A stretch of DNA of 44,156 bases from a virus: IMG/VR virus record IMGVR_UViG_3300030104_002354, positions 1-44,156 of that record; one strand, 5' to 3'. A model generated the notes under the pieces. The model saw nothing but the letters and a program-made list of their open reading frames with translations. It was not told where the DNA came from and did not search any database. Shown here piece after piece: positions 8,575 to 44,156 of this stretch. The translations under genes and the position numbers were made by a program. The first letter of the stretch is position 1; each line of letters starts with the position of its first letter.

Positions 8575-8580
8575 TACTTA

Positions 8581-30434: not shown

Positions 30435-30436
30435 GA

Positions 30437-30967: not shown

Positions 30968-30992
30968 AATCCCTAGAATACATTTCCCTTAT

Positions 30993-31021
30993 ATTGTAGC
31001 GTCATAAAAAACCCCCACCAA
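30993..31021 (-). promoter_or_regulatory. Putative promoter for the connector/tail region
   Basis: On the leftward strand: TTGGTG (31016-31021), 17-nt spacer, TACAAT (30993-30998), then AAGGGAAATG before the adaptor gene. The -35 lies within the loop and stem of the capsid terminator. It would restart transcription of tail genes at a level separate from capsid. Confidence 0.5.
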
Positions 31022-31038
31022 ATAAATGATGAGGGTTT
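31006..31038 (-). terminator. Strong terminator after the major capsid gene
   Basis: Leftward RNA: an 11-bp stem (31028-31038 with 31009-31019, two G-U wobbles), an 8-nt loop (31020-31027), then six U (31006-31011). It stands 30 bp after the capsid stop and should end or attenuate the head operon. Confidence 0.8.
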
Positions 31039-31067
31039 ATTCCATTCCCTATTGATTTAATTATAAA

Positions 31068-32150
31068 TCAAGAGATGGTTGTTGTGTCTAATGGTGTGTT
31101 AACTGTGATCTGAACAGCAGGGATCAAATCAATGTCATAAGTAGCAGACCACTTGTTAGCAGTAGCTAAGTTTGCATTGGTCGGGTTGTCACTAGCATCA
31201 GTCCACTTAGTACCCATTACGTGATACGCAGTGTGGTAGTCAACAGAAAGTACATTTTGTTTCGATAAGATGTTCCTATCAGCCTCTATCCGAAGATCCT
31301 GCTGAACACCTTCCATAATTGTGCCGCCTTTGAGTAGGTAGCAGTAGTACTCAGTGATGTGACCTGTGGAACCAGGAGCAACAGTGTTAACAGCTTCGTC
31401 AACGATGACTTTACAGCCAGCAAATTGACCAACTTCTTTAGCACCGATTCCAACTCCGCCGCCACCCCACTGGACACCTGTTCCAGTTGAAAGTGCAGAA
31501 GTAGAGAAAGTTAACATTCCTACCTGATATAGGTAGTAAGCAACTGATGGATGAACAACCAAAATATCTGGCTCTTCACCACGCTCACCCAACTTATTAC
31601 GAGCTTGGGCAATAGTAGAAGCTGTTAAATAGTTAGCTTCACCAGCACCTGAACCAGCAGCTTTCGCAACGTCAAGTGCGTTACCTGCAAGAGCAGTACC
31701 GAATAAACCAGCAAGTTGTGAGAACAAACGAGCGTTGTTTAACTTGTTGATTGCATCAGCTAACTGATTACGGATAGCCAACATTGGATCTTCGCCAGCA
31801 GCCAAGACAGCCATGTCATCTACAGCGTATGCGAAACCTCTGTGGATGATTGTTGCAATCTGGGTTGCTGTACCGATCTTCTGTGGTGTTAAGTAACCAG
31901 CAGTTGAGGTTCCCCAGTTGGCCGCCCCAGTCATCACCTCTTCAGTTGGTGCTACAGGGTTGAACTCAGGAACTTGGATGCGTGTACCACCTTCCTTGGA
32001 ATCAAGGAAACTGTTTCTTACAACAGCACCACTTTTAACGAATTGGCTACGCTCTTTAATTGCCTCTTGGACATAGCGAGCCAAATTATTTCTTTTTACG
32101 ATGTCTGCTAAGAGAACACCGCCAGAGTAATTCTGAAAAGGAGCAGCCAT
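31068..32150 (-). CDS. Major capsid protein (HK97 fold)
   Basis: 360 aa. It has the layout of HK97-fold coats without a long N-terminal delta domain: an N-arm (LLADIVKRNNLARYVQEAI), an E-loop region with VQVPEFN-type sequence (RIQVPEFNPVAPTEEV), a P-domain with TAYAVDD-like FAYAVDDMAVLA, and an A-domain with PDILVVHPSVAYYL and CKVIVDEAV. It follows a separate scaffold gene; no maturation protease is seen. A good ribosome site (AAAGAGG) precedes the ATG, and a hairpin lies further upstream. Confidence 0.88.
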   Translation of the reverse strand: MAAPFQNYSGGVLLADIVKRNNLARYVQEAIKERSQFVKSGAVVRNSFLDSKEGGTRIQVPEFNPVAPTEEVMTGAANWGTSTAGYLTPQKIGTATQIATIIHRGFAYAVDDMAVLAAGEDPMLAIRNQLADAINKLNNARLFSQLAGLFGTALAGNALDVAKAAGSGAGEANYLTASTIAQARNKLGERGEEPDILVVHPSVAYYLYQVGMLTFSTSALSTGTGVQWGGGGVGIGAKEVGQFAGCKVIVDEAVNTVAPGSTGHITEYYCYLLKGGTIMEGVQQDLRIEADRNILSKQNVLSVDYHTAYHVMGTKWTDASDNPTNANLATANKWSATYDIDLIPAVQITVNTPLDTTTIS

Positions 32151-32182
32151 GTGGCCTCTTTAAAATTTACGGTTTACTTTGC

Positions 32183-32199
32183 CTAAGTCACGGACTTAG
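32183..32199 (-). other. Hairpin in the leader of the capsid gene
   Basis: CTAAGTC (32183-32189), ACG loop, GACTTAG (32193-32199) forms a perfect 7-bp stem. TCACGGA occurs within it and again at about 32216-32222. There is no U-run after it, so it is not a simple terminator. It could be an RNA processing or stability element between scaffold and capsid, allowing more capsid mRNA. Confidence 0.4.
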
Positions 32200-32232
32200 A
32201 AATAACATCATCAAATCACGGATTCTTAGATG

Positions 32233-32937
32233 TTACTGAGATGCCTCTTTTTGCAGCACGGCTGCTAAATCAGGGTCTTGATTAGATAATATCATTTGTT
32301 GCGTTAAATTGCCCGTCTTCCAAGGGTTTTCAGACCCAGGAGCAACATTAGATGTTGGACTTGGCTTTGCACCCATGCCAGCCGCATTACTAGCCTTAAA
32401 GTGATGTTCCCATCCACTTCCAGGGTTCTTCAAATTGTTAACGTAAGTACCTAAATCTTGTTCAACACCGCCATTTAAAATAACAGTTCTACCATCACTG
32501 CTTTTATGCAATTTATCTTGCAAAAGTGATAACGTTTGACCTGCATTAATCGCTCCAGCATTACTTAAAGCAGCTAGAGCCGTTGTACGTGTTGCCTCCA
32601 TCTGCTTCTGTTCTTTTGCCGTTTTTAACTCATTTTCTAGTTCTGCTATTCTTCTGTCTTTTTCTTGGGCTGTTTTGTTTGCGTCTTCCCAAAGAGGCTT
32701 ATACATACCCTGATCTTCTAAGGCTTTTTTACGATCATCGTAATACTCACCTATTTTACTTTTAGCGTTTTGGAACGCTTTTTCTTTTTCCGCTAATTGC
32801 TCTTTTAAAGCTTCAAATTCAGCTAAAGGAACAGTAGGAACTTCGGGTGCAGCAGGTGGTGTAGGAGTTTCAGGGGTAGCCACGGGCTGTTCTTCAGAAG
32901 TCACGGACTCCTGCTGAATAACTCTTTCTTCAATCAT
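32233..32937 (-). CDS. Capsid scaffold protein
   Basis: 234 aa, acidic and Pro-rich N-terminus (TPETPTPPAAPEVPTVP), a central coiled coil about residues 43-120 (FEALKEQLAEKEKAFQNAKS, KDRRIAELENELKTAKEQ), then a Gly/Asn-rich C-terminus with PENPWKTG-like SENPWKTGNLTQQ. Position directly before the capsid gene and this composition are typical of scaffolds that guide procapsid assembly. No protease domain is visible. Confidence 0.8.
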   Translation of the reverse strand: MIEERVIQQESVTSEEQPVATPETPTPPAAPEVPTVPLAEFEALKEQLAEKEKAFQNAKSKIGEYYDDRKKALEDQGMYKPLWEDANKTAQEKDRRIAELENELKTAKEQKQMEATRTTALAALSNAGAINAGQTLSLLQDKLHKSSDGRTVILNGGVEQDLGTYVNNLKNPGSGWEHHFKASNAAGMGAKPSPTSNVAPGSENPWKTGNLTQQMILSNQDPDLAAVLQKEASQ

Positions 32938-32939
32938 AA

Positions 32940-33065
32940 TTAATCAGTTACAGGTGCTTTAGGTGTCTCGACTGTCTCAGTTTTTACGACAGGCTTCTTT
33001 TTTGGTGGCTTTGGTGGACAAGCGGGAGGATTTAAGTCCTCGAACCTCATTTTTTCGATTGGCAT
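32940..33065 (-). CDS. 41-aa Pro/Lys-rich protein
   Basis: MPIEKMRFEDLNPPACPPKP is followed by KKKP and a Thr/Pro-rich tail. It lies between portal and scaffold with its own ATG and stops 2 bp before the scaffold start. Many marine siphophages have such a tiny Pro-rich gene in this place. Function unknown. Confidence 0.5.
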   Translation of the reverse strand: MPIEKMRFEDLNPPACPPKPPKKKPVVKTETVETPKAPVTD

Positions 33066-33089
33066 AGTAAATAAATGCTCTTCCCTACT

Positions 33090-33118
33090 ATTGTAGTGTA
33101 TTAATTAGAATCAGTCTC
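33090..33118 (-). promoter_or_regulatory. Possible promoter before scaffold/capsid
   Basis: Leftward TACAAT (33090-33095) followed by AGTAGGGAA, as in the promoter at 30993-30998. The -35 at 17 nt is poor (GAGACT). It lies at the end of the portal gene and would raise scaffold and capsid transcription. Confidence 0.35.
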
Positions 33119-34543
33119 TGTTGCATCAGGAAGAACTTCACCTTGAACTAAAATATCTCTGAATTCTTCCCTATCTATAACTTTTTGGTCGAAGAGAGAG
33201 GTTAAAGCTGTTATATCTTGTCCAATAAGCCTTTCAATATCAAAATCACGGCTAATCTTGACTTCTGGAGGTGCAATTCCTAAGTAAGAGGCAGATAAAT
33301 TGAACACTTTTTGTAACTTTTGCTCTAATTCTAGAGAAACCATCGAAAGCATTGAATTTGTATCTACACGGTCTAAACGTCTTGCATCGGCTGATTCTGC
33401 AACAAACTTTTGTTGTGATAATGTACTAATTCCTAAAGTCGCCATTTGAAGCTGTAATTCTTGTATTTCGTTAGTCTGAGCTTCAAAAGCACTGCTGGCT
33501 GGTTCTACATAGTAGACTTTATTTCCTGGTTGAGTTGCCATCGCATAGTTAACACTAATAGTGGTGTCTTTTGTTTGATCATCCCACCCTTCTAGTACCA
33601 ACATTGGTTGAGACGCAACGTGCAAACTATGAATTAAGTCAGCTTGACGTTGAAAATGAGCCAAATTTAAGTACGCAATATCTAATAACGGTGGTTTGCT
33701 AGTTAAAGTGTCTGTTTTACCTGAATAAATACTAACTAAAGGTACTTCTCCTAAAGAAAACGCTCCAGAATCAACTAATTCATAGTCTTTTTCATTTTCT
33801 GGTCCATCAAAATTACCTGCATAAGTCGTGTCTTGCAGATTAATTAGGTCTTTTTTAGGTGAAACCTTCCGATAAATACTAAATTTCCCTGGTTCAATTA
33901 CTCTAACTTGATCAAATACTTGTTCACCAAATTCTCCTGAAGGTACAACTGCTTTTTCAGCAATTCTTACCTGTATCATGCTGCCATAATTAACTTCTCT
34001 GTCTAATCTCCAGCCATAAATGTTTGTTGGATCAATTTCTATCCAATATGGTCTTCTATTTTGCGCTCTTTCTTCTGCCAGACTTAACGCCCCTGTTGGA
34101 GCAGGGTAATCGACCAAAATATGACTCTGACCGTAAGTCAAAGAACAAATAAGCACCCTTCTTGCATATTCGTCTAGATCTGACCCGCATCCATCAACAT
34201 CTTTTGCAAATATATCTGTCCAATACGAATCACCTATCAAAGTAATAGGCTTTCTCATTATTAAACCTGTCGCTGCTCTGATTAATCGCTGCGTATATGG
34301 TGAAAATACTGCTCGATTAACTCTAGATAAATAAGCTGTGTAATCCTCCCGTGGCTCAAGAGGAAGAAAAGCTTCTGAATTATCTCTTAAATATTCAGTT
34401 CCATTTGTGACGGCTTTCATAATTTCCCACCCCTTTACCATGTCCATTACTGCACGAGTGCGAGTAAACGGACTATCTGAACCACCTACACTAGTAGAAC
34501 TGGTTACGTTGGTACGAATTGGGCCAGGAACGGAGTACGTCAC
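33101..34543 (-). CDS. Portal protein (DUF4055-type)
   Basis: 480 aa. Features of DUF4055 portals: WEIMKAVTNGTEYLRDN, FLPLEPREDYTAYLSRVNRA (about 57-76), PYTQRLIRAATGLIMRKPI, LDEYARRVLICSLTYGQSHI, and the clip/stem region with PLLDIAYLNLAHFQRQADL followed by a wing helix with LQMATLG. Forms the dodecameric ring through which DNA enters the head. It lies downstream of the terminase block and tail-tube-like gene. Confidence 0.88.
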   Translation of the reverse strand: MTYSVPGPIRTNVTSSTSVGGSDSPFTRTRAVMDMVKGWEIMKAVTNGTEYLRDNSEAFLPLEPREDYTAYLSRVNRAVFSPYTQRLIRAATGLIMRKPITLIGDSYWTDIFAKDVDGCGSDLDEYARRVLICSLTYGQSHILVDYPAPTGALSLAEERAQNRRPYWIEIDPTNIYGWRLDREVNYGSMIQVRIAEKAVVPSGEFGEQVFDQVRVIEPGKFSIYRKVSPKKDLINLQDTTYAGNFDGPENEKDYELVDSGAFSLGEVPLVSIYSGKTDTLTSKPPLLDIAYLNLAHFQRQADLIHSLHVASQPMLVLEGWDDQTKDTTISVNYAMATQPGNKVYYVEPASSAFEAQTNEIQELQLQMATLGISTLSQQKFVAESADARRLDRVDTNSMLSMVSLELEQKLQKVFNLSASYLGIAPPEVKISRDFDIERLIGQDITALTSLFDQKVIDREEFRDILVQGEVLPDATETDSN

Positions 34544-34573
34544 AGTTCTTTCCTTTTAGTTGTTAGCCCTAGA

Positions 34574-34990
34574 TTAAGCACCGTTTGTTATTGCTCCAGA
34601 TGTTTGGAACCCTACGCTAATTGTCTGTAAGTCTCCTATTGTTGTTCCCATATCCACGCTAGTAACAATACCGTAGAAACTAACTTTTTTAGTACCTGAA
34701 GTATCTAAGAAAAGCTCAAATTGAGCATCTCCAGCATCTTCAGTTGTTAGAGCGTCTGATAATAATTCAGCAGTTTCATCTCCAGAACTCGCTGTATATA
34801 GAAATTCAACAGAACCACTGCCAGAAATTAAAGATCCGACATAGCTGCGAGCAGTAGCTCCGTGTGCTGTGCAATCTAAAGTATCTTTTGAAATGCTAAG
34901 ACTCCATCCTGTAGTAGAAGCAATAGCAGCAGTTGTTCCTGATCCGTTCTTGAACTTAACGGAGCCTTCTTCGCCACGATAGAAAGCCAT
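34574..34990 (-). CDS. Tail tube-like (major tail) protein
   Basis: 138 aa, all-beta: GSVKFKNGSGTTAAI, TTGWSLSISKDTLDCTAHG, SGSVEFLYTASS, FELFLDTSGTKKVSFYGIV and IGDLQTISVGFQTSG. The strand order and the 'W.....d.ld.T..g' feature match small tail tube proteins of siphophages. It is placed between TerL and portal, whereas tail tube genes normally follow the tail terminator; no other tube candidate is seen near 28-30 kb, which supports the call. Confidence 0.65.
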   Translation of the reverse strand: MAFYRGEEGSVKFKNGSGTTAAIASTTGWSLSISKDTLDCTAHGATARSYVGSLISGSGSVEFLYTASSGDETAELLSDALTTEDAGDAQFELFLDTSGTKKVSFYGIVTSVDMGTTIGDLQTISVGFQTSGAITNGA

Positions 34991-35023
34991 GAGCTAAAAT
35001 AAAAATAGACTATTGCTGATAGT

Positions 35024-35173
35024 CTAACTTGTACTGTCTACTTTTACAGTACTTTTTGCAGAAGGTTTTGGTTTTTTAGCCATATATTGCTCGCATCTGT
35101 AATCCCATAAAGCGGGATTTCTCTTTCCCTTCACAGCTTCTACTGCATCCAACTGTTCTTTTGTTAGTTCCAT
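35024..35173 (-). CDS. Small hypothetical protein
   Basis: 49 aa from the ATG at 35173, preceded by GGTGA at a good distance. An upstream in-frame ATG (35212) would overlap the previous gene and is less likely. It reads MELTKEQLDAVEAVKGKRNP and ends in a Lys/Pro/Ser-rich tail. The helical start and basic tail suggest DNA or capsid association. Function unknown. Confidence 0.55.
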   Translation of the reverse strand: MELTKEQLDAVEAVKGKRNPALWDYRCEQYMAKKPKPSAKSTVKVDSTS

Positions 35174-35177
35174 AAAG

Positions 35178-35450
35178 TCACCATTTAGTTTTGTCAGCCC
35201 AGTATGCTGCACTCATCTTACCCTTTGCAATATTTTTTGCATGTCTAGCCTTAAATGACCTCTTTCTGGCTTTGTCCTTCTCACTTTGTGGGTTTTTTCC
35301 TGCACCACTAACGCCTTGCTGTCCAAAACGTATCAATTTTACTTGATCTCCTTGCTTTGCTAAGACTGCATGAGACTTAGTTGCATGACCAGGTGTTCTT
35401 TTGGGTTTGTTATACCCACTAAACTTTTCTTTACCTCTTGTAACTGTCAT
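35178..35450 (-). CDS. Basic conserved phage protein (DUF6321-like)
   Basis: 90 aa, very basic: GYNKPKRTPGHATKSHAVLA, VKLIRFGQQGVSGAG and SFKARHAKNIAKGKMSAAYW. This pattern is familiar from marine and aquatic phages and corresponds to DUF6321 as far as I remember. Function is not established; the charge suggests DNA binding or packaging. Coupled to the upstream gene by an ATGA overlap. Confidence 0.7.
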   Translation of the reverse strand: MTVTRGKEKFSGYNKPKRTPGHATKSHAVLAKQGDQVKLIRFGQQGVSGAGKNPQSEKDKARKRSFKARHAKNIAKGKMSAAYWADKTKW

Positions 35451-35647
35451 TTTTTCTTCTTTTTAGCTGTTTTTTCCGACTTCTTAAAATCTGACGCAGT
35501 TGGAGCACCTTTATCTCCAGGTTTTCTCATCTTTTCTCCACTACCAGCCGCAATACGTTTCTTTTTTGCCGCAATATTCGCATATAACCCTTTTTTCTTT
35601 TTAGGTCTTCCTTTTTTACTTCCGTAGCTTCCTTTTCCAGTTGGCAT
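35447..35647 (-). CDS. Small lysine-rich protein next to terminase
   Basis: 66 aa, about one third Lys: KKGRPKKKKGLYANIAAKKK, GSGEKMRKPGDKGAPTASDF and a KK tail. It is common beside the terminase in marine phages. Probably binds DNA; the role is unknown. It starts 4 bp after the TerL stop and overlaps the next start (ATGA). Confidence 0.65.
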   Translation of the reverse strand: MPTGKGSYGSKKGRPKKKKGLYANIAAKKKRIAAGSGEKMRKPGDKGAPTASDFKKSEKTAKKKKK

Positions 35648-35651
35648 GGTT

Positions 35652-36905
35652 TTAGTAAATTCTGTACCCAGTCTGCCCTAAAGTTTCAGGTTTTGCCAAG
35701 TTGAACTGCTGTAAACATAGGTAGCCGAAAGCGTCAAAAGCGTGATCAACACCAAGATTTTTATTAGGTAAACCTGTGTTTGGTGCATAAGTCAGAGTTC
35801 TCAGAGATTTTATTAGTTCCTTGCATCTTGGATGAATATACGTTCTTCTGTCTCCGCTTGCATCCAGTAAAGCAGTGTTAACGGCTGTTATTTTGTCTCT
35901 TATTTTCCAAGGGGCACGGGGACTTGAAACATTAAAACCACTTCTTCGTAAAATACTATGGTCAGTTGCTCCTACTCCAGAAGTTTTTCTTGCTCCGCCC
36001 GTGGGATCAGGACATGCCACTATTCTGCGTTCCACGCCGTATCTTCGGGTGACTTCTTCGGCAAAGTCCCATGTGGTTGCCCCACCTGTGAGCGTGATTT
36101 CGTCAAAAACATACAATGTATCCGAATCTTTAACAGCGCATACGGCTGACATTGGGTCAACGTTAAAGTCAACACCTAAAAGTATGGGAGCTACGCTTAT
36201 ATCTTTTGCTTTTTGGGAGATGTTTTCGTCAGAGAAAGAAACTGCGACTAAACCTGTCAGATTTTCAAAGCTGGCTTCAAATTCTTGGCGAAATGTGCGT
36301 TCGTCTAGTTGGGCACGGGCAGCTTGTACTTCGTCTGCTGGTACGTTGCCCCCTTCTATTGTAGTAAAACTCCAGCGTTTCCAGTCGCCTGTTTCATCTT
36401 CGGGGACGTAGCACCATAAATCGTAGAACCAGCTTGCGGTTCCATCGGGTGTGGATATGAAGAGGGTCCAGCCTTGTTTGTCGGCTAGGGCGGGACGGAT
36501 TACCTCGAACCACACTTCAGAATCCATGAAGGCTGCTTCGTCTAGGACTACACCAGCAAGACTTCGACCACGAAGAGCCATTGCGTTTTCTGTTCCTTTG
36601 AGTTCGATGGTGGAATCGTTGATGAGTTCTATTTTTAGGTCGCTTTCGTTTTTATTTTTGATCCACTCGTTAGGGACTAGGCGTTTTATTTCTTTCCATG
36701 CGATGTCTTTTGCCATACGGTAGGTCGGAGCGCAGTAAAAGTAGGTTTCTCCTGGTCTGTTTATTGCTGCTTTTAGTAATTCGATGCAGGAAAGATATGA
36801 TTTTCCGAAGCGGCGACCAGCTACTAGGACACGGAATCTACTTTCGCTATTGAATACTTCTCCCTGTGCCCAACGTAAACTTAAAGGTACTGTTTTTGTA
36901 GTCAT
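35652..36905 (-). CDS. Terminase large subunit
   Basis: 417 aa DNA packaging motor. ATPase: Walker A AGRRFGKS (29-36), Walker B GVVLDEAAF with D122 and E123, coupling motif STPDG (151-155). RuvC-type nuclease: D246 (GVDFNVD), D300 (ACPDPTG) and D387/D391 (DHAFDAF). It pumps DNA into the procapsid and cuts it. First gene of the leftward late region. The intergenic space before it (36906-37004) is shared with the divergent small-terminase candidate. Confidence 0.95.
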   Translation of the reverse strand: MTTKTVPLSLRWAQGEVFNSESRFRVLVAGRRFGKSYLSCIELLKAAINRPGETYFYCAPTYRMAKDIAWKEIKRLVPNEWIKNKNESDLKIELINDSTIELKGTENAMALRGRSLAGVVLDEAAFMDSEVWFEVIRPALADKQGWTLFISTPDGTASWFYDLWCYVPEDETGDWKRWSFTTIEGGNVPADEVQAARAQLDERTFRQEFEASFENLTGLVAVSFSDENISQKAKDISVAPILLGVDFNVDPMSAVCAVKDSDTLYVFDEITLTGGATTWDFAEEVTRRYGVERRIVACPDPTGGARKTSGVGATDHSILRRSGFNVSSPRAPWKIRDKITAVNTALLDASGDRRTYIHPRCKELIKSLRTLTYAPNTGLPNKNLGVDHAFDAFGYLCLQQFNLAKPETLGQTGYRIY

Positions 36906-37004
36906 GTAGTACAGACTAACAGTTTTAGTTGGTTAATACACTTATAAATTAGACTAAATCGGTGTTTTGACGTTATCATTTAAATATTGTTATTGGATTA
37001 GTCC
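36906..37004. promoter_or_regulatory. Divergent intergenic region between TerL and the TerS candidate
   Basis: 99 bp, AT-rich, and must carry promoters both ways. Rightward candidate: TTGACG (36967-36972), 18-nt spacer, TATTGG. Leftward candidate: TATAAG with a weak -35. ATGTAGTACA begins at 36904 and recurs at 37637 and 37746. No strong operator palindrome seen. Confidence 0.35.
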
Positions 37005-37442
37005 GTGACTGATTCTGTTATTCGTAATAAAAACGGACAGTTTTGCGTTCCAGGGAAAGAAAATGAGGCTGTTGGTAGGAGGACTGATGCTGTTGTGGAG
37101 GCTAGGAGACAAAAGTTGTATAGGAGGCAGTTAGAGGGTTTAACTGTGAGACAGTTAGTTTTGGATCATCAGGCGAAGGAAGGGATTAGTCGGGATACTG
37201 CTTGGGCAGATTGGAGGAAGGTGAAGCAGTGGAATAATGAGGACTGGGAGACTGACAGGGAGAACTTGTTGCCTAGATTGCAAGCAATGAGGATTAGGCT
37301 TTTTGAAAAGGCTGTGAGGAAAGGACAGTTGCAGACTGCTGCTCAGGTGCTGGATTCGTTGGGGAGAGTGATTGGGGAAAGTGTGGAAAACGTAAATATC
37401 AACGCTCCACAATTATCGATTCAGGTAGAACCAAAGAATTGA
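37005..37442 (+). CDS. Small terminase subunit candidate
   Basis: 145 aa from a GTG start preceded by GGATTAG. The N-terminus has a basic tail and a helix-turn-helix-like region (LEGLTVRQLVLDHQ, ISRDTAWADWRKVK). The C-terminal half is a long helix pair (RLQAMRIRLFEKAVRKGQLQ, TAAQVLDSLGRVIGES), as in TerS and related phage HTH proteins. Its position, divergent to and adjacent with TerL, supports a packaging-recognition role, but sequence proof is weak. The base use is more G-rich than in nearby genes. Confidence 0.6.
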   Translation: MTDSVIRNKNGQFCVPGKENEAVGRRTDAVVEARRQKLYRRQLEGLTVRQLVLDHQAKEGISRDTAWADWRKVKQWNNEDWETDRENLLPRLQAMRIRLFEKAVRKGQLQTAAQVLDSLGRVIGESVENVNINAPQLSIQVEPKN

Positions 37443-37624
37443 TACGCAAATTTTTGGACCTATTGGGTGAGCCTTTTGTTTATCGCTCTCCTGCCCCCCT
37501 ACAAGGATACTACAAATTTTTAAGGTACTTAACGTGTAAACAACTGGGAGTCCTTGCGGGAACTAGAACTCATCTGTCAAAAGACAAATTAATTGCAAGA
37601 ATATTGACAGATATGGAACGTTAG
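37439..37624 (+). CDS. Small SAP-like protein
   Basis: 61 aa from a TTG start that overlaps the previous stop (TTGA), so translation is coupled. LTCKQLGVLAGTRTHLSKDK, then LIARIL, matches the SAP helix-turn-helix pattern ('l.v.eLk.la...gl..s..K.eLi..l'), which binds AT-rich DNA. It may help the terminase or replication. The gene overlaps no other and ends before the inverted-repeat region. Confidence 0.5.
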   Translation: MIRKFLDLLGEPFVYRSPAPLQGYYKFLRYLTCKQLGVLAGTRTHLSKDKLIARILTDMER

Positions 37625-37680
37625 TGTAGTATAAGTATGTAGTACATAAGAAACTTATTCACCAAAATATATTTAAGTAG

Positions 37681-37726
37681 TGGGGGGTTTGAAAAAGTTG
37701 GCGACATTTTCGAGTCATACCCCCCA
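37681..37726. other. Large hairpin in the intergenic region after the TerS candidate
   Basis: TGGGGGGTTTGA (37681-37692) pairs with 37715-37726 with one mismatch; an inner GAAAA/TTTTC (37691-37695 with 37707-37711) extends it. No U-run follows. Nearby inverted repeats: TACTGTA/TACAGTA (37736-37742 with 37752-37758) and ACGAC/GTCGT (37791-37795 with 37811-37815). The 282-bp gap 37625-37905 holds these, the terminator at 37857-37884 and no convincing gene. A pac, cos or origin role is possible. Confidence 0.45.
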
Positions 37727-37856
37727 TGTCTACTCTACTGTAGTTATGTAGTACAGTAATGACATAGCTACCTCGACAACATACGTCTACACGACTGTCT
37801 TTATAAACGGGTCGTCTAACTATTGTAGTAGTTTAGTAAAAATAATTGCAGACATT

Positions 37857-37884
37857 AAAAAATCCCCACTTGTGAGGTGGGGAT
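37857..37884 (-). terminator. Terminator of unit 38364-37906
   Basis: A 10-bp GC-rich stem (37862-37871 with 37875-37884, one wobble) and a tight loop, then A-run 37857-37862, which gives U's in the leftward RNA. It may also act rightward for the TerS/SAP transcript. Confidence 0.75.
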
Positions 37885-37905
37885 ATAAAAAATTTTAGTA
37901 GTTAA

Positions 37906-38103
37906 TCAACCGTAGATAGTTTTATAACAATAGGAACTGCTCTCACGTTCCAGACATCTTTTCAGGTGTTGCTGATCTTCGATATGGAATGAGTAAGAAC
38001 ATACGCCAAAGAATAGAACAGATAGAATTACCATACTAGACAGCATAATATTCTCTTTTCTGCCTGTGGCTTGCCTTCTTTGTGTTCTTTGTTGGTAGTT
38101 CAT
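37906..38103 (-). CDS. Small single-TM protein
   Basis: 65 aa. A basic N-terminus (QQRTQRRQATGRKEN) is followed by a hydrophobic helix (IMLSSMVILSVLFFGVCSYS, residues about 19-38), then a polar part with two Cys (KRCLERESSSYCYK). It could be a small inner-membrane protein or a signal-anchored periplasmic one. It is 33 bp downstream of the next gene in the same unit. Function unknown. Confidence 0.55.
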   Translation of the reverse strand: MNYQQRTQRRQATGRKENIMLSSMVILSVLFFGVCSYSFHIEDQQHLKRCLERESSSYCYKTIYG

Positions 38104-38136
38104 AAGTAATTTACAGAGTTAGTACGGTAGAGAGAC

Positions 38137-38364
38137 TTAAAAACTAGAGATAATTGTTGCGGTCGTTCCACTAGTTTTGGTGTACTCAATAGTTCCAGTA
38201 GAACTTACTAAAACATCTGTGAACCACTTCTGAATAGACACTGTGACCTGTTGGCAGTTGGAAAAGTCAGCAATAAATTTTACTTTGTTGGGTTGGTCTC
38301 TGTAGTGCTTAGCAAATACAACAGATGCGCCAGCAGGTAGAGACTCAGCAAGTTTAGAAATCAT
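38137..38364 (-). CDS. Small hypothetical protein
   Basis: 75 aa, alpha/beta mixture: PAGASVVFAKHYRDQPNKVK, then FIADFSN, VTVSIQKWFTDVLVSST and EYTKTSGTTATIISS. No family recognised. It is the first gene of a unit with its own promoter (38393-38420) and a leader nearly the same as that of the 39067 gene. No ribosome site in the leader. Confidence 0.55.
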   Translation of the reverse strand: MISKLAESLPAGASVVFAKHYRDQPNKVKFIADFSNCQQVTVSIQKWFTDVLVSSTGTIEYTKTSGTTATIISSF

Positions 38365-38392
38365 TTGAAATTGTGGATGAATTTACTATTCT

Positions 38393-38420
38393 ATTGTAAC
38401 ACAGTAGAACAGACACGCAA
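38393..38420 (-). promoter_or_regulatory. Promoter of unit 38364-37906
   Basis: Leftward TTGCGT (38415-38420), 16-nt spacer, TACAAT (38393-38398). It starts 2 bp after the terminator of the previous unit. The stretch from TACAAT to the ATG closely matches that of 39096-39067. Confidence 0.55.
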
Positions 38421-38422
38421 AT

Positions 38423-38448
38423 AAAAAAGGGACTGTAAAAAGTCCCTT
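38423..38448 (-). terminator. Terminator of the 39067-38483 gene
   Basis: AAGGGACT/AGTCCCTT (38427-38434 with 38441-38448), loop GTAAAA, then an A-run 38423-38428 giving leftward U's. Confidence 0.8.
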
Positions 38449-38482
38449 AAAATCTATATTTTAAAATGTAGTAACTGACCTT

Positions 38483-39067
38483 TTATACTATCCTAACAAG
38501 TTCGTTATAGATTTTTCTATCCTCAAAATCACAACAATTAAACTTATACTCCTCACCTTTTAAACCTTGCTTTATTACCTTATTCAAAACATTCAATAAA
38601 ACTTCATTACAAAGAATGTAAGCAAGTGAACTTCTAAACTCAGAACTATGTGAACACTGAGTCATAAAATCCTTAGTAATTGAAGCTACTTTTAAAAAAT
38701 CAATATTAATATCATTCGCCATCAATACCGATACATTAGAAGCATCAAAAGCAAACTCTGATTTTTTATACTTATAATTTTCACATCCTTTCCACATAAG
38801 AGGATCACCATACCTAACATCTAGTGATTTTTTATTAGCAGATACCATGTGATCAACTAATAATTGCGGTATGTCCTCACTTTTAATCTTACATTCATTG
38901 TGAATATCAGAAATATCTTGCCTAGCTATAAAACTACTTTTAGTTTCAGACCTTCTAAACTCTAAACAATCAAACTTAGTTCTATTATCTAAGTGACTTT
39001 GAGTTTCTTCTAACCAATAGGTAACTATTAAATTAATAGCGTCATTAGTTGCAAGATAACAAGACAT
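38483..39067 (-). CDS. Hypothetical protein (MSCYLATNDAINLIV type)
   Basis: 194 aa. The N-terminus MSCYLATNDAINLIVTYWLE is like a set of cyanobacterial and cyanophage proteins of unknown function that begin 'MSCF..s..hI..lv'. The rest has several Cys (C49-type sites and a CC pair near the end, FNCCDFE) and helices. Single-gene unit with its own promoter and terminator. Confidence 0.6.
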   Translation of the reverse strand: MSCYLATNDAINLIVTYWLEETQSHLDNRTKFDCLEFRRSETKSSFIARQDISDIHNECKIKSEDIPQLLVDHMVSANKKSLDVRYGDPLMWKGCENYKYKKSEFAFDASNVSVLMANDINIDFLKVASITKDFMTQCSHSSEFRSSLAYILCNEVLLNVLNKVIKQGLKGEEYKFNCCDFEDRKIYNELVRIV

Positions 39068-39095
39068 AATTGAAATTTGGATGATTTACATATCT

Positions 39096-39123
39096 ATTGT
39101 ATCACACTAGAAAGGATAATCAA
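39096..39123 (-). promoter_or_regulatory. Promoter of the 39067-38483 gene
   Basis: Leftward TTGATT (39118-39123), 16-nt spacer, TACAAT (39096-39101), followed by AGATATGTAAATCATCCA and AATTTCAATT just before the ATG. Confidence 0.6.
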
Positions 39124-39126
39124 TAA

Positions 39127-39151
39127 TAAAAAAGAGCCTGTAAAGGCTCTT
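39127..39151 (-). terminator. Terminator of the 39581-39216 gene
   Basis: AAGAGCC/GGCTCTT (39132-39138 with 39145-39151), loop TGTAAA, then an A-rich run 39127-39133 giving leftward U's. Confidence 0.75.
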
Positions 39152-39215
39152 AAATCTATATTTAAAAATGTTGTCAATGACTTTCTATACTACACTAACA
39201 AATTAAAATGATGAT

Positions 39216-39581
39216 TTATTCGACTTTCAATTGATTAACTAAAATATCTTTTCTATCTTTTTTATACTTATTTATCTTTTCGGTTACTTTCAAAAGTAAT
39301 TTTTCACCCTTTTCTATTTCATCATCTAATTTGATTAAATCAACTATGCAAGATCCGTAATCATAAAAAGATTCTTTATCATCTACAAAATCTAGAAAAT
39401 TTTCTAAATCATAATAATCGCACATTGTCTGATCATTGTATTCATCATTTGGCGTTCCATCATTTGAATACATTTTTGAATATTCCTTTTCTATCCTTTT
39501 AAATGATTTTTTAGCAATAACAATGTATTTTTTAGCGTGTTCTTTGAAATACTTTTTGGCAAAAGGATTTGAATTGTTCAT
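39216..39581 (-). CDS. Hypothetical charged helical protein
   Basis: 121 aa, rich in Lys, Asp, Glu and Tyr. The N-terminal basic helix (AKKYFKEHAKKYIVIAKKSF) is followed by an acidic Tyr/Asp-rich middle (NDEYNDQTMCDYYDLENFLD) and a C-terminal coiled coil (EKGEKLLLKVTEKINKYKKD). Not recognised. The AT-rich codon use is stronger than in the structural genes. Single-gene unit with its own promoter and terminator. Confidence 0.55.
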   Translation of the reverse strand: MNNSNPFAKKYFKEHAKKYIVIAKKSFKRIEKEYSKMYSNDGTPNDEYNDQTMCDYYDLENFLDFVDDKESFYDYGSCIVDLIKLDDEIEKGEKLLLKVTEKINKYKKDRKDILVNQLKVE

Positions 39582-39607
39582 AGTTCTATGAGTGAGAAAC
39601 TAAAGTC

Positions 39608-39636
39608 ATTCTAGGCTATCTAATGTAATACGTCAA
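39608..39636 (-). promoter_or_regulatory. Promoter of the 39581-39216 gene
   Basis: Leftward TTGACG (39631-39636), 17-nt spacer, TAGAAT (39608-39613): the best sigma70 match in the window. It lies 6 bp after the terminator of the DUF932 gene. Confidence 0.65.
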
Positions 39637-39642
39637 TAAAAT

Positions 39643-39669
39643 AAAAAAGGGACTGTATTAGAGTCCCTT
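39643..39669 (-). terminator. Terminator of the DUF932 gene
   Basis: AAGGGACT/AGTCCCTT (39647-39654 with 39662-39669), loop GTATTAG, then an A-run 39643-39648. The stem sequence is identical to that at 38427-38448. Confidence 0.8.
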
Positions 39670-39694
39670 ACTTATTATTATCTAATTAATGTAG

Positions 39695-40780
39695 TTATCT
39701 AGTAAGTTGTAAGCACTTTTCTCTTGCTATATCTATTCGATTACCACAAGGGCCAGCTATTAAAGATTGATACCTATTCATTGCATTTTTATTCTCATCT
39801 AATATTCTGCCTTCACTATGTGTCTGTTGATAGGTGAGTGCATTAAACGCTCCATAGAGTGAAAAATCATTATCTCTATAGTAGTTATTTTTTACTTCAG
39901 ACCATTCCTTGTCAATATCAGAGATATTTTTGTTTCTTTTCTCTTTAGTGTACTTATCTTTGACCTGACCTTTTAATTTATCGGCTAGTGAGTGCAAAAA
40001 TATATCTCTCAATGTATCAGTGCCTTTTAACTCAACTTTTTTCATGGCTCTAAACTCTTCAATGGATTCTTGTAAATCGTGACTATTTTGTGCAATATAA
40101 GAGGGTAGATGTTTGCTCCAATTAACAATATTTTGAGAATGTTTCATTGTAAGTTTATTTTTAGACTTGTTAATACGTCCCATTTGATTGAAGCAGAAAA
40201 GCCTAAAATCTATGATTATTACTTTATATGAATGAGTATTGTTAAATGAGTTGACAAAAATCATTCTGCGCTTGATTTTATCGTTAGGTGTCACCTCTCC
40301 GATATTGTCCTTCATAGAACATGAGACAAATGAGAAGGCACCACCTTGCCCATTAATCACGTTCTCGACTTGTAAGACTTTCTTATTTTGCTCGATAATA
40401 TCTAGAGTCCTCGAATTATTTAAAGGTCCATACGTTCCAGATACACAACTTAAGACCTTACCAGTTCTACTGTTTACAAGTGCTTTGGCGTTGGGAACAT
40501 CTATATAACCATTAGATTGAATAGTGTCACATTTAGCAGTATCAGCAACTAAGGGAACTTGATGAACATCAAAAGTTAGTCCAGTATCCCAAAATATCTG
40601 TTCATTGGTTTTATTGTCTGTAACTGTCGTACCAATAAGACTCTCATTACCTTTTCTTTGATAACCTAACCTTTTAAAGTCAGCACTTCTATTTTGACTC
40701 TCTACCATAATAGGATTTGATTTTGAATAGACAGTATCTATTTCAGTTTGATAGTGTCTCTCGTTGTTAATAAAAGTCAT
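39695..40780 (-). CDS. DUF932-family (phage/plasmid-like) protein
   Basis: 361 aa. The features VPNAKALVNSRTGKVLSCVS, YGPLNNSRTLDIIEQ, GGAFSFVSCSMKD, RRMIFVNSFNNTHSYKVIII and HSQNIVNW follow the DUF932 pattern ('a.vr.dtg..lg.V...Y.p..n.e.f', 'G..f.l..l', 'l...ns.dgs.a....t..rvvC.N'). Such proteins are widespread in phages and plasmids; function unknown, possibly linked to DNA metabolism. It lies in its own transcription unit with a sigma70-type promoter. No ribosome site: TTCATCC directly precedes the ATG. Confidence 0.75.
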   Translation of the reverse strand: MTFINNERHYQTEIDTVYSKSNPIMVESQNRSADFKRLGYQRKGNESLIGTTVTDNKTNEQIFWDTGLTFDVHQVPLVADTAKCDTIQSNGYIDVPNAKALVNSRTGKVLSCVSGTYGPLNNSRTLDIIEQNKKVLQVENVINGQGGAFSFVSCSMKDNIGEVTPNDKIKRRMIFVNSFNNTHSYKVIIIDFRLFCFNQMGRINKSKNKLTMKHSQNIVNWSKHLPSYIAQNSHDLQESIEEFRAMKKVELKGTDTLRDIFLHSLADKLKGQVKDKYTKEKRNKNISDIDKEWSEVKNNYYRDNDFSLYGAFNALTYQQTHSEGRILDENKNAMNRYQSLIAGPCGNRIDIAREKCLQLTR

Positions 40781-40807
40781 GGATGAACTTTGTGTATTAC
40801 ATTTCTA

Positions 40808-40835
40808 ACTATACAGCAAAAAGTAGATAAGACAA
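40808..40835 (-). promoter_or_regulatory. Promoter of the DUF932 gene
   Basis: Leftward TTGTCT (40830-40835), 16-nt spacer, TATAGT (40808-40813), 28 bp before the ATG. Confidence 0.55.
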
Positions 40836-40881
40836 TCTAAAAAATCAAATGTTAGTAAAATATCACAATAGAGATTTTTAG

Positions 40882-40939
40882 CCTTTTATATGCTATATAA
40901 AAAGAATATTCCATAATCTATAGAATATTACAATATCAA
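40882..40939. other. AT-rich palindrome cluster in divergent intergenic region
   Basis: Two imperfect inverted repeats: CTTTTATAT...ATATAAAAAG (about 40883-40904) and AATATTC/GAATATT (40915-40921 with 40933-40939); the octamer GAATATTC (40914-40921) is itself a palindrome. They lie in the 274-bp divergent region 40781-41054, which otherwise holds only promoters. Candidate operator or origin. Confidence 0.4.
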
Positions 40940-41054
40940 AACATTTAACTAGATAATCCTATCTACTGTGTAACAATATAAGAGTCTGTTAGTTCTCGTT
41001 ATTTTTACGGGAATTACGGATATTTTTTAAATCGTTCCATTAATCACTCAAATT

Positions 41055-41630
41055 ATGGGCTTAGATATGTACCTTGATGGTGTTTTCAGTAAGAGAGCAT
41101 ACTTTCAAGAAGATCGATCCGTTCCTATGGATGATCCTATTCAGAGTGAGAGCTTAAAGCTTGCACTTGCTTCTATAGGTTTCCCTGATAACGTTCCACT
41201 AGATTTTTCTTACAGGCATTTTGAGGTTAGGCTACCTCTTGCATCTTGGAGAAAAGCTAATCAAATACATAACTACATAGTTAGGGAAATCGGTAAAGGT
41301 ATAGACGACCAGAAACCTATTTATTTAACTGATGAACATTTAGAGCAAATTTTAGATGTTATTAGGGAAGTAGGGAACGATCCAGTGAAAGCCAAGAAGC
41401 TCCTACCTCCTGTTGAAGGTTTCTTCTTTGGTAGTCAGGAAATTGATTCTTACTATTGGCAAGATTTAGCCTACACAAGAAAGACTCTAAAAAAGATTCT
41501 TGAATATCAAAAAGTACAAGCTCATATTTATAAAGAAGCTGAGTTAAAGGAATATCAAAAAGATAGGAAGGATAGAACGTTCCCTGATCCTAAAGGTTTT
41601 GATTCTTTTAGATATAGGGCCAGTTGGTAG
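41055..41630 (+). CDS. Conserved phage protein of the MGLDMYL family
   Basis: 191 aa. MGLDMYLDGVFSKRAYF and WRKANQIHNYIVREIGKGID, then EIDSYYWQDLAYTRKTLKKI, are hallmarks of a phage protein family found in many hosts, always starting MGLDMYL with a WRKANxIHxW site. No function is established. It is first in the rightward 41.0-42.9 kb operon. A CGTTCCA lies just upstream at 41033. Confidence 0.75.
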   Translation: MGLDMYLDGVFSKRAYFQEDRSVPMDDPIQSESLKLALASIGFPDNVPLDFSYRHFEVRLPLASWRKANQIHNYIVREIGKGIDDQKPIYLTDEHLEQILDVIREVGNDPVKAKKLLPPVEGFFFGSQEIDSYYWQDLAYTRKTLKKILEYQKVQAHIYKEAELKEYQKDRKDRTFPDPKGFDSFRYRASW

Positions 41631-41632
41631 GA

Positions 41633-41995
41633 ATGGATAAACAAGAAGGGATAGAGTTTATTGAACAAGCTCTATTAGATAATCTAAAAATTAAAAATAA
41701 GCATATCCGTAGAGATGTAACGACTGAGTTACAAGAAGATTACGGAATCAGCTCTACCACTTCTTACGAGTGGTATAGAGCTGCTTATCAAAACTTTAGA
41801 ACAGACAAGGTAGAAACTGAGGGTGGATACAAAGCGATCCATCCATCAGTTTTGCTTAGGGATGCTGAGGATATCATGCTATCGATTGACTCTACTGAAG
41901 AGCCTGAGAGATACATGAAAGCTCAGCAACATTATGCAAATTTATTAGGCAAATTTAAGCACTTAATTATGTTCCGTTCCAATGAAACACACTGA
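41633..41995 (+). CDS. HTH protein, possibly terminase-small-subunit-like
   Basis: 120 aa from ATG 41633; a TTG at 41624 with AGGG just before it would add three residues and overlap the previous stop. A helix-turn-helix is seen at about 25-55 (IRRDVTTELQEDYGISSTTS, then YEWYRAAY). The second half is helical (EEPERYMKAQQHYANLLGKF). The pattern resembles DNA-binding small terminases or early regulators. Its location in an early operon argues for a regulator. It overlaps the next gene by 14 bp. Confidence 0.6.
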   Translation: MDKQEGIEFIEQALLDNLKIKNKHIRRDVTTELQEDYGISSTTSYEWYRAAYQNFRTDKVETEGGYKAIHPSVLLRDAEDIMLSIDSTEEPERYMKAQQHYANLLGKFKHLIMFRSNETH

Positions 41996-42158
41996 TTTTT
42001 TAATACGTGTAGAGCATACGCAAGCCTACACAAAAGAAGCTCTTACCCAGATACTAAAAAGATCTGGGATTAGTGGACTTAAGGTTACTATTCTTGATGC
42101 TGAAAATGCTGGAGATAGTAACGATCCACGTAATTATTCACCCTACATAGGTCACTAA
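41982..42158 (+). CDS. 58-aa hypothetical protein
   Basis: Starts MKHTDFLIRVEHTQAYTKEA in the overlap with the previous gene, then LTQILKRSGISGLKVTILDA and a short acidic end. The strand-helix-strand pattern (FLIRVEHTQ, helix, KVTILDAEN) suggests a small ferredoxin-like fold. Ends 1 bp before the next ATG. Unknown function. Confidence 0.55.
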   Translation: MKHTDFLIRVEHTQAYTKEALTQILKRSGISGLKVTILDAENAGDSNDPRNYSPYIGH

Positions 42159-42159
42159 A

Positions 42160-42396
42160 ATGAACGATCCACAGATTATTCATCCCTTTTGTCAGGTACA
42201 TTATTCTGATGTGCCTAAGCTAGTTAAAATTCTCTATATGGTTGAGACTTTTTGTCCTGAATTTGCTGCTACATGGGACAGCGTAGATTCAGGGGATCAA
42301 GCAACTTGGGAGGAGGTTAAGAAGCTTGTTTTAGATATTGGGGAGGATGCACGTACCATCAAAGAACATCTTAATTGGAGTGAGAAAAATGAATAA
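42160..42396 (+). CDS. Small acidic hypothetical protein
   Basis: 78 aa, helical, with VPKLVKILYMVETFCPEFAA and ATWEEVKKLVLDIGEDARTI. It starts 1 bp after the upstream stop and overlaps the next start by 8 bp. Not recognised. Confidence 0.55.
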   Translation: MNDPQIIHPFCQVHYSDVPKLVKILYMVETFCPEFAATWDSVDSGDQATWEEVKKLVLDIGEDARTIKEHLNWSEKNE

Positions 42397-42550
42397 TAGG
42401 AATTACTCTGAGTCTGAAATTTTTAGGCAAGCTGAGAATGACTTGTTTAATAATTCTTTTTGGAATCAAGAAGATGAGCCGGAAGATGACGAGCCATCAG
42501 ATGATGAAATGATGTCTGCTTTTGGTACTAAGTGGCATGACGGGTTATGA
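42389..42550 (+). CDS. Small acidic hypothetical protein
   Basis: 53 aa from ATG 42389, preceded by GGAGTGAG at a good distance; an upstream extension into the previous gene is unlikely. Very acidic second half (EDEPEDDEPSDDEMMSAFG). Such acidic small proteins can mimic DNA, but this is only a possibility from charge. Its stop overlaps the next ATG (ATGA). Confidence 0.5.
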   Translation: MNNRNYSESEIFRQAENDLFNNSFWNQEDEPEDDEPSDDEMMSAFGTKWHDGL

Positions 42551-42744
42551 AACAACCAAGATACAAACTTGAGCTAACTCATAAACAGTTAGCTGAGATT
42601 GAGGACTTCTATGAAGAACGTTCCAAAATATCTTTAGGTAATGGGGTTAATAGAGAAGATTTGGCAGATGCTTTTGATGCACTGGCAAGAATTAATCGAC
42701 TTTATTCTGATAATGCAGTTGAAATGTGGGGTGAGCAAGTATGA
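42547..42744 (+). CDS. Small helical hypothetical protein
   Basis: 65 aa: YKLELTHKQLAEIEDFYEER, then NREDLADAFDALARINRLYS. All helical. Coupled on both sides by ATGA overlaps. May pair with the following ribbon-helix-helix protein, but there is no sequence proof. Confidence 0.55.
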   Translation: MKQPRYKLELTHKQLAEIEDFYEERSKISLGNGVNREDLADAFDALARINRLYSDNAVEMWGEQV

Positions 42745-42926
42745 CTAAAATTACTATTGATGGAGTTACCTTTATTGAGCAGAAAAAATCTACTGCTATG
42801 AAAACAGTAGGGGCTAGATTACCTTTGGAAGTGATTGAACTGTTAGAAAAAAGAGCTAAAGAATTAGGAATAAATAAAACTACGTTGATGCGTTTTTATA
42901 TATGTAAGGGTCTTAAGTTTGGTTGA
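42741..42926 (+). CDS. Ribbon-helix-helix (CopG-like) regulator
   Basis: 61 aa. KTVGARLPLEVIELLEKRAK, then LGINKTTLMRFYICKGLK, is a standard ribbon-helix-helix: a beta strand (VGARLP), helix A, a turn, and helix B beginning TTLMR. Likely represses early promoters as a dimer or tetramer. It is last in the operon; its 3' end overlaps the convergent exonuclease gene by 14 bp. Confidence 0.7.
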   Translation: MTKITIDGVTFIEQKKSTAMKTVGARLPLEVIELLEKRAKELGINKTTLMRFYICKGLKFG

Positions 42927-43761
42927 GGGTTAGAGATTGCTGGTACTGTTCGTTACGTTCCAGAAACCATACCTCGGCGGCTCGTAATTCGAGTTCGCTG
43001 AGGATTTTTATTTGTGGGGCACCACTACGTCTAGCTATGATTACTGCTCCTTTTTTAGGGCGGAGTCCGATTAGGGATTTTAAAGCTAGGCTGTACGCTC
43101 CAAGTTGGCAGCAGAATTGGTCGATGATGGATTCGCTACGTGCGTCTTTTGCGGTCTTCCAGTCTGCTATGAAAGGGCCGTCTCCGTCTATGTCTATTAG
43201 GGCGTCCGCTGTACCTGCATATCCGTGTTGTTCGTTGTAGACACTAAATTCTGAGGCGTGGATGGCGGTTACACGTTCCAGGATGAAAGACCGTAAGCCT
43301 CTGGCGTAGCCACTGGCTGAGAAACCAACCTTCGGGGCGTTCTCTGCTGCCTTTTCAAGTGCCCATTTTGTGACTTTGCTAGGGCACCGTTCAAGTCCGT
43401 CCGATCCAGTCTTCCATACTCCTCGGTTGTTGCCAGCGTTTCGTGCCAGCTTTGCACCAGTTTTGAGAAGGTATTCTGCATGTGAGTGTGCAAGTTCTCC
43501 ACGTTTGCAAGCAATGTCCCTTTCGGTGTAACTGTTTGGTCTTTGTAGCCAACGTTCCAGTGCATCTTTTTTATCTTGGGGTGCTGTTTGACTAAGGATA
43601 TGAGTTACTGAATGATATACATTTTTCTTTGCATCTCGATATATCCTGTGTGGGTATAAAGTTTGAGTGTCGTCTCGTTCCAGTTTCCAGTTTCTTAGGT
43701 CTGCTAGAGCGTCTTGTTTGTCTAGCGTACCCATTAATGGTTCATAAATACACGTTCCCAT
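42913..43761 (-). CDS. PD-(D/E)XK exonuclease (RecB/Cas4-like)
   Basis: 282 aa. RGELAHSHAEYLL (H92 with an upstream RG) and the core E171, GYAGTADALIDI (D186), IADWKT (D200, K202) and QLGAY (Q219, Y223) make a complete PD-(D/E)XK site. Phage members digest DNA ends for recombination, replication or host DNA breakdown. A second ATG (M10) gives an alternative start at 43734. The gene looks GC-richer than its neighbours. It lies next to an ssDNA-binding-like gene, which suggests a recombination/repair pair. Confidence 0.85.
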   Translation of the reverse strand: MGTCIYEPLMGTLDKQDALADLRNWKLERDDTQTLYPHRIYRDAKKNVYHSVTHILSQTAPQDKKDALERWLQRPNSYTERDIACKRGELAHSHAEYLLKTGAKLARNAGNNRGVWKTGSDGLERCPSKVTKWALEKAAENAPKVGFSASGYARGLRSFILERVTAIHASEFSVYNEQHGYAGTADALIDIDGDGPFIADWKTAKDARSESIIDQFCCQLGAYSLALKSLIGLRPKKGAVIIARRSGAPQIKILSELELRAAEVWFLERNEQYQQSLTLNQT

Positions 43762-43783
43762 AATTAATATATAGCAAAAGGAC

Positions 43784-43813
43784 TAAAAAAGAAAGGGGTC
43801 TGTGCGACCCCTT
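43784..43813 (-). terminator. Terminator between SSB-like gene and exonuclease
   Basis: AAGGGGTC/GACCCCTT (43793-43800 with 43806-43813), loop TGTGC, then A-rich 43784-43794 giving leftward U's. A TATATA box before the exonuclease ATG (about 43768) hints at a separate promoter. Confidence 0.75.
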
Positions 43814-43819
43814 GTTTAT

Positions 43820-44156
43820 TTAAGCTGCTGCTTTGAAAGGATCTCCTCCATCTAGTAAGCGTCTTAAATCGAAACCTTTTTCCTGAGTTTCTTTCCATGC
43901 AAGCTCAATGGAAGCTGTAGCACCTTTCTTTCTAGGAACAGCATTAAGGCTGTATCTAGTTTCTTTAGCTTGTCCTGTTCTCTTTAGAACTAAATCAATT
44001 TCAGTCATACAGTCTCTGTAATCTTCCATCTGACTTATCTCATCTAGTGCTTGAGTTATCGTTGACTGATTCCATTCAAGTACTTGGACAGAACTTGTGT
44101 TGTAGTTATACACAGGTACAGAAGAAGCCATCTTTATAGCATCGCTACCCGTTCCA
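43820..44156 (-). CDS. ssDNA-binding-like protein, 5' end cut by window edge
   Basis: 103 aa from ATG 44131, but the frame stays open through GTGSDAIK to the edge, so the start is probably outside. SSVQVLEWNQSTITQALDEI, then TEIDLVLKRTGQAKETRYSL and AVPRKK, resembles the C-terminal part of phage ssDNA-binding proteins ('kvleitq.ti..al......yDi.i.rtG.gl.T.Y...p.pkk'). Those are longer and have an N-terminal OB or zinc part, which fits a truncation here. It would protect ssDNA made by the replication genes and the nearby exonuclease. Confidence 0.55.
   Translation of the reverse strand, partial: GTGSDAIKMASSVPVYNYNTSSVQVLEWNQSTITQALDEISQMEDYRDCMTEIDLVLKRTGQAKETRYSLNAVPRKKGATASIELAWKETQEKGFDLRRLLDGGDPFKAAA

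Follow-up and report, generated by a model that had tools for sequence, protein, structure and literature searches.

A block of leftward genes at positions 37857-40835 of an IMG/VR virus contig (IMGVR_UViG_3300030104_002354; 44,156 base pairs (bp), the whole of which was analysed and is called the window here) probably consists of accessory units that are each transcribed on their own, carried by a siphovirus-like phage, as yet uncultured, of marine picocyanobacteria, and the junctions common to these units would permit the loss and exchange of single units. The block looks like a standardized socket for accessory-gene exchange. By sequence it comprises four leftward transcription units (Table 1), which is the number given in an initial annotation made from the letters of the window. 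That annotation counted one gene for each unit, but there are five genes, since the last unit contains two. The evidence consists of the terminators, the repeated structure of the junctions, losses and swaps of units in related phages and the concentration of breakpoints at unit boundaries, all of which are read from the sequences.

A strict-rule terminator scan of both strands of the 44-kb window identified nine sites, where first-order Markov sequences predict 0.65. The 3-kb block contains four of these, and the sole other leftward site within 10-37 kb is at 31011-31036. Thus, the block appears to be divided into separate units, in contrast to the long operons elsewhere in the window, as the initial annotation had proposed. 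The four leftward hairpins, designated A to D, have U-tails and lie where they had first been placed; both their excess over expectation and their folding energies support them (-11.6 to -13.6 kcal/mol, z -3.0 to -4.4, with nearly all shuffled sequences folding less well). Terminators A and C are the two that had been described as having the same 8-bp stem (AAGGGACT/AGTCCCTT). Stems B and D are retained in related phages through paired changes, which were read by eye from the alignments. Stem B occurs as AAGAGCC/GGCTCTT or AAGAGGG/CCCTCTT, and stem D occurs as ATCCCCTAC/GTAGGGGAT and ATCCTCTAC/GTAGAGGAT.

At A, B and C, a promoter-like sequence begins 3-6 bp past the U-tail, and the spacing of a few bp that had been claimed for them is right. 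The promoter calls themselves carry no weight alone, since a plain -35/-10 consensus scan of positions 34000-44156 returned 31 sites, compared with 28.8 in shuffled sequences, which is the level of chance; comparison with relatives was therefore needed. Promoter A (TTGACG/A, a spacer of 17 nucleotides (nt), TAGAAT) is present in every close relative that retains unit 2, and promoters B and C (TCTAsTGTGnTACAATAGA) are also kept in relatives. This conservation makes all three credible, including C with its poor -35 element (TTGCGT). A matrix built from the B and C sites scored 39.9 at B, 38.8 at C and 23.5 at 40955-40980 on the plus strand, while the maximum in shuffled sequences was approximately 9 and the next best score elsewhere (11.4) was the antisense of C. 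B and C were in the training set of this matrix, so the plus-strand site is its only independent hit. The leftward block and the rightward block may be switched on together through this class of promoter. None of the leaders of the four units has a Shine-Dalgarno sequence.

Junctions B and C are paralogous repeats of approximately 140 bp. Read from the end of one gene to the ATG of the next, each consists of a 3' flank (TTTAATTTGTTAGTGTAGTATAG...ATTTTAAAATATAGATTT), the terminator stem, TTTTTTATT, the promoter and a leader of approximately 24 nt (GTAAATCATCCAAATTTCAA). Within one genome B and C are 65-77% identical, while shuffled sequences gave a mean of 53% and a maximum of 60%. Junction A has its stem in common with C but has a different promoter. 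A short RNA transcribed from the 3' flank, with TTAGTGTAGTATAG as its -10 element, was considered and dropped because it had no -35 element.

Seven close relatives were compared, each a contig that has the DUF932 gene of unit 1 at 86-92% identity and the same TerS-like and TerL genes in its flank. Units 2 and 3 are the only variable ones among them; the fixed anchors are the DUF932 gene and the last unit. Thus, the moron-like layout that had been suggested is supported for units 2 and 3, which vary between relatives, but not for the DUF932 gene and the last unit, which are in all seven. The initial annotation had looked to related phages for single units gained or lost at the junctions, and such events were found, as losses of unit 2 and exchanges of unit 3; strict conservation of the genes as one block is refuted by the seven. 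Unit 2 is missing in L003, L005 and L006 through three different breakpoints, and after each loss the genes on either side are still separated by a terminator and a promoter. In L003, the last codons of the lost unit 2 gene lie between terminators A and B, which adjoin each other there. In L006, the join runs from the DUF932 stop codon into the last codons of unit 2, so terminator B is where the DUF932 gene ends in that contig. In L005, a hybrid junction combines terminator A with a B-type promoter. The unit 3 slot contains three unrelated genes: one of 193-194 amino acids (aa) in the window, L003 and L006, one encoding an unrelated protein of 176-186 aa in L002, L004, L005 and L008, and, in L007, a third of 127 aa. 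For example, when the window is aligned with L004 or L007, identity runs through junction B until 0-3 nt before the ATG, is absent in the unit 3 gene and returns at the flank of junction C or at terminator C.

These comparisons also bear on whether the block is one operon in practice, with hairpins that are weak, antiterminated or sites of RNA processing and promoters that just boost the distal genes. The poor -35 elements of B and C would agree with such an operon, as would L002, which has no terminator between units 2 and 3. However, the stems with U-tails are retained through paired changes, and wherever a close relative has lost a unit, the genes that are left are still separated by a terminator and a promoter at the least; we regard a single operon as unlikely.

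A wider set of 61 distinct stretches, each running from DUF932 to TerS, was also analyzed. Nearly all of them contain one to four strong terminators on the strand of the units, and the genes between DUF932 and TerS were grouped into 30 families, with 17 singletons besides. An element that recurs in 24 distant loci (a terminator, approximately 150-200 nt of conserved non-coding sequence, a promoter and a similar leader) lies between 17 different gene pairs. The first part of this element and the flank in the junctions of the window may share ancestry; in some loci, though not in others, their alignment scored above all shuffles. The ends of high-identity blocks gave 449 breakpoints in the 61 loci, 61.7% of which are intergenic, compared with 33.4% expected. 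When breakpoints no more than 30 nt from a unit end are included, the figure is 91.3%, compared with 46% expected and a maximum of 53%. For example, a stretch of 4,493 bp that runs up to a swapped gene's stop codon (L120:4496, L122:4492) is 99.9% identical in L120 and L122, two contigs of different metagenomes, which have only 8 bp (ATTAATTC) in common at the join. We read this pair as a very recent module swap at the stop codon. All of these genomes are metagenomic and the junctions are repeats, so misjoining of different phages by assemblers had to be considered as the source of the arrangements. This is very improbable, since the same arrangements recur in contigs from different metagenomes, independent contigs contain the unit families in many orders and the 8 bp at the L120/L122 join are too short to mislead an assembler.

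The proposed mechanism is as follows. Each unit would stop at its own intrinsic terminator, and the next would start from the promoter that follows after 3-6 bp and would have a short leader that lacks a Shine-Dalgarno sequence. Because the junctions are repeats of one another and are common to different phages, recombination at or near them could remove the one gene that lies between two junctions, or put another in its place, and the neighbours would still have a terminator and a promoter that work. The fixed ends would be the DUF932 gene and the two-gene last unit, with the exchange zone in the middle. We infer that the signals act in vivo, that homology between junctions guides recombination, rather than selection merely retaining clean joins, and that the payload genes help infection. 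Tentatively, the block may be a dedicated exchange locus, belonging to an uncultured siphovirus-like group of picocyanobacterial phages, with fixed end genes, standardized junctions (terminator, promoter and common 5' leader) and approximately 30 or more interchangeable small gene families, which would have evolved independently of the promoter early stem-loops (PeSLs) of T4-type phages and in which junction homology itself would drive the swaps.

Several points weigh against exchange through common junctions. First, the known close relatives number just seven, each of them a metagenomic contig. Secondly, the 449 breakpoints are not independent events, because one event shows up in many pairs. 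Third, the unit 2/3 junction of L002 has lost its terminator while retaining its promoter. Lastly, the joins in L006 and in L120/L122 are at stop codons, outside the terminator-promoter repeat, with short matches only, and illegitimate recombination plus selection fits them as well. These two joins favour an explanation that is quite conceivable, if short of probable, in which the junctions are expression signals only, illegitimate recombination is random, selection keeps intact genes and signals, and the likeness of the junctions stems from duplication and common regulation. Phage mosaics in general tend to be joined at the borders of genes, which also counts for this explanation. However, the hybrid junction of L005 and the unit 3 swaps have their limits inside the repeated junction, and the junctions are common to unrelated genes in many combinations, which counts against this explanation. 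The two explanations overlap, and their probabilities do not sum to one.

PeSLs are reportedly the subject of Arbiol et al. 2010 and Comeau et al. 2014, as their titles have it. In two papers that cite this work, they are described in T4-type myoviruses as a combined terminator stem-loop and promoter repeated between small genes of variable regions, with a proposed role in gene shuffling between related phages (PMC4503421, PMC3950731). Measured against that description, the window resembles them in several respects. First, junctions A, B and C unite a terminator stem-loop and a promoter in one intergenic motif. Secondly, the motif is repeated with similarity (65-77% for B and C, above the shuffled maximum of 60%). 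Third, genes are gained, lost or exchanged at the motif between related phages. The likeness is one of layout; the window's repeat differs in adding a 3' flank and a leader without a Shine-Dalgarno sequence and in occupying one locus of the genome only. The window phage also differs from the T4-type phages that carry PeSLs, since it is siphovirus-like, with a lambda J-type tail, a tape measure and a family-A DNA polymerase, and probably has a different host. Because the phage is not T4-type, the block appears to work like a PeSL region but is not classified as one.

Other systems were also compared. In the archaeal virus HGTV-1, many open reading frames are preceded by a PeSL-like repeated motif that combines an inverted repeat with a promoter-like part, and roles in regulation and shuffling were suggested for it (PMC3950731). 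Its motifs have archaeal TATA-box signals, whereas the window has bacterial-type -10 elements and intrinsic terminators, with losses and swaps in relatives. The SAS/ESAS of cluster K mycobacteriophages are conserved repeats just before the start codons of different gene families; half have an upstream inverted repeat, SAS resembles a Shine-Dalgarno sequence and the inverted repeats seem not to form RNA hairpins (PMC3203893). The window's junctions are similarly placed before start codons, but they lack a Shine-Dalgarno sequence, keep their hairpin through paired changes and pair a terminator with a promoter. Morons are extra genes between phage genes, with their own signals and lower GC content, that vary between relatives (PMC2920897). 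Like morons, the block appears to have its own promoters and terminators, and it is low in GC (31.5% for 37625-40780, compared with 38.8% for the window). Unlike in morons, the signals stay with the site while the genes change, and units 1 and 4 are constant. The ORFanage region of the marine cyanophage S-PM2 is also a variable region of unknown genes, for which its authors judged PeSLs unlikely (PMC4503421), while in the window terminator-promoter junctions are dense. If the proposed exchange is real, terminator-promoter junctions as sites of gene swapping are not special to T4-type phages, and they arose or spread in a different phage group, which probably infects the most abundant marine phototrophs. 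The block would also yield a catalogue of small exchanged accessory proteins as candidate host-interaction genes, and the losses, the hybrid junction and the near-identical pair would be a natural series for testing the role of junction homology.

The initial annotation had also suggested genes of host takeover or defence, and this found no support. Searches of the unit proteins with Pfam, NCBIfam, PHROGs and PADLOC gave just DUF932 plus matches at chance level. The unit 1 protein matched Pfam DUF932 at 3e-12 and TIGR03299 at 51 bits, which is under the cut-off of 110.7. PADLOC had no match in the five block genes, counter-defence collections not being among those searched. The AlphaFold model of the DUF932 protein (pLDDT 78.6) had no PDB match with E <= 0.001, and the model for unit 3 (46.9) was too poor for use. 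By profile comparison, the second gene of unit 4 matches the gene that comes last in the distant loci (hhalign probability 92%); its weak matches to hexaprenyl synthase and CTXphi pIII were under curated cut-offs and were dropped. Insertion by a homing endonuclease or transposon was also considered and rejected, there being no such gene among the window's units.

Table 1. Genes, promoters, leaders, terminators and flanks in and beside the leftward block.
Feature	Positions	Strand	Remarks
Unit 1: DUF932/TIGR03299-like gene, 361 aa	39695..40780	-	fixed upstream anchor
Unit 2 gene, 121 aa	39216..39581	-	present in L002, L004, L007, L008; missing in L003, L005, L006
Unit 3 gene, 194 aa	38483..39067	-	same family in L003, L006
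Unit 4 first gene, 75 aa	38137..38364	-	all close relatives, 47-55% aa identity
Unit 4 second gene, 65 aa, one hydrophobic stretch	37906..38103	-	fixed downstream anchor; all close relatives, 71-83%
Promoter-like site of unit 1 (TTGTCT, 16 nt, TATAGT)	40808..40835	-	consensus match alone; weak
Putative promoter A of unit 2 (TTGACG, 17 nt, TAGAAT)	39608..39636	-	consensus match; conserved in L002, L004, L007, L008
Putative promoter B (TTGATT, 16 nt, TACAAT, extended -10 TGTG)	39093..39123	-	consensus match, relatives, matrix
Putative promoter C (TTGCGT, 16 nt, TACAAT, extended -10 TGTG)	38390..38420	-	relatives, matrix; absent from consensus-scan list
B/C-class promoter site	40955..40980	+	matrix 23.5; precedes rightward operon, genes from 41055
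Leader of unit 3	39068..39092	-	no Shine-Dalgarno; resembles leader at C
Leader of unit 4	38365..38389	-	no Shine-Dalgarno
Terminator A, end of unit 1	39647..39669	-	kept in relatives that retain A junction
Terminator B	39132..39151	-	stem retained through paired changes in relatives
Terminator C	38427..38448	-	8-bp stem identical to that of A
Terminator D, end of unit 4	37862..37884	-	stem retained through paired changes in relatives
3' flank of junction B	39152..39213	-	repeated at junction C
3' flank of junction C	38449..38500	-	overlaps unit 3 gene end

In the distant loci, a non-coding stretch (TTGAATGATTTTAAA..GTTAATGTAGTATTGCA...AGTCTTATT..TGTGAGATT) was observed between the terminator and the promoter of the middle junction in L012, L034, L039, L045 and approximately 20 other loci. 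This stretch of 150-200 nt precedes many different genes and has a weak consensus fold (-5.6 kcal/mol) with small covariation; a structured RNA is not claimed there, the covariation being little. In addition, L082-L089, with TerL at 90-92%, have no DUF932 match, yet two strong terminators lie next to TerS on their unit strand, and thus the terminator layout may be older than the DUF932 block.

The host is most likely a marine picocyanobacterium, as judged from accessory proteins of cyanophage type and from terminase and structural synteny with a contig of a Prochlorococcus single-cell genome. The accessory proteins encoded at 7640-8077 and 9628-10467 match almost exclusively cyanophages (429 and 213 records), and the 41-kb Prochlorococcus contig (L125, QCMG01000013.1) has TerL at 81% and structural genes in the order of the window. 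Other TerL relatives are in metagenome bins with assorted labels, which were discounted as binning. The genes of the window include a lambda J-like tail protein, a tape measure, a terminase, a family-A DNA polymerase and primase-helicase-like genes. A near-identity search of a phage collection with positions 30000-44156 as the query gave no match, and the best relatives in a TerL search were Vibrio phages, at just 45%. Rfam gave nothing on 34900-44156, and a tRNA search found none.

Several minor observations were made. The examined stretch of L125 has no DUF932 gene and no strict terminators beside TerS. Positions 7640-11225 of the window are a cluster of small proteins, and the two tested match only or almost only marine cyanophages, mostly T4-like, to which the window phage type is otherwise unrelated. 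Between terminator D and the convergent TerS-like gene, approximately 240 bp of non-coding sequence (37600-37860) is conserved in the close relatives and is rich in ACTACA/GTAGTA-like motifs, with G6...C6 in the window; it is possibly a packaging site adjoining the terminase genes. Lastly, a hairpin at 43793-43813, between the leftward genes 43820-44131 and 42913-43761, has T-rich tails on both sides and scores as a terminator on both strands.

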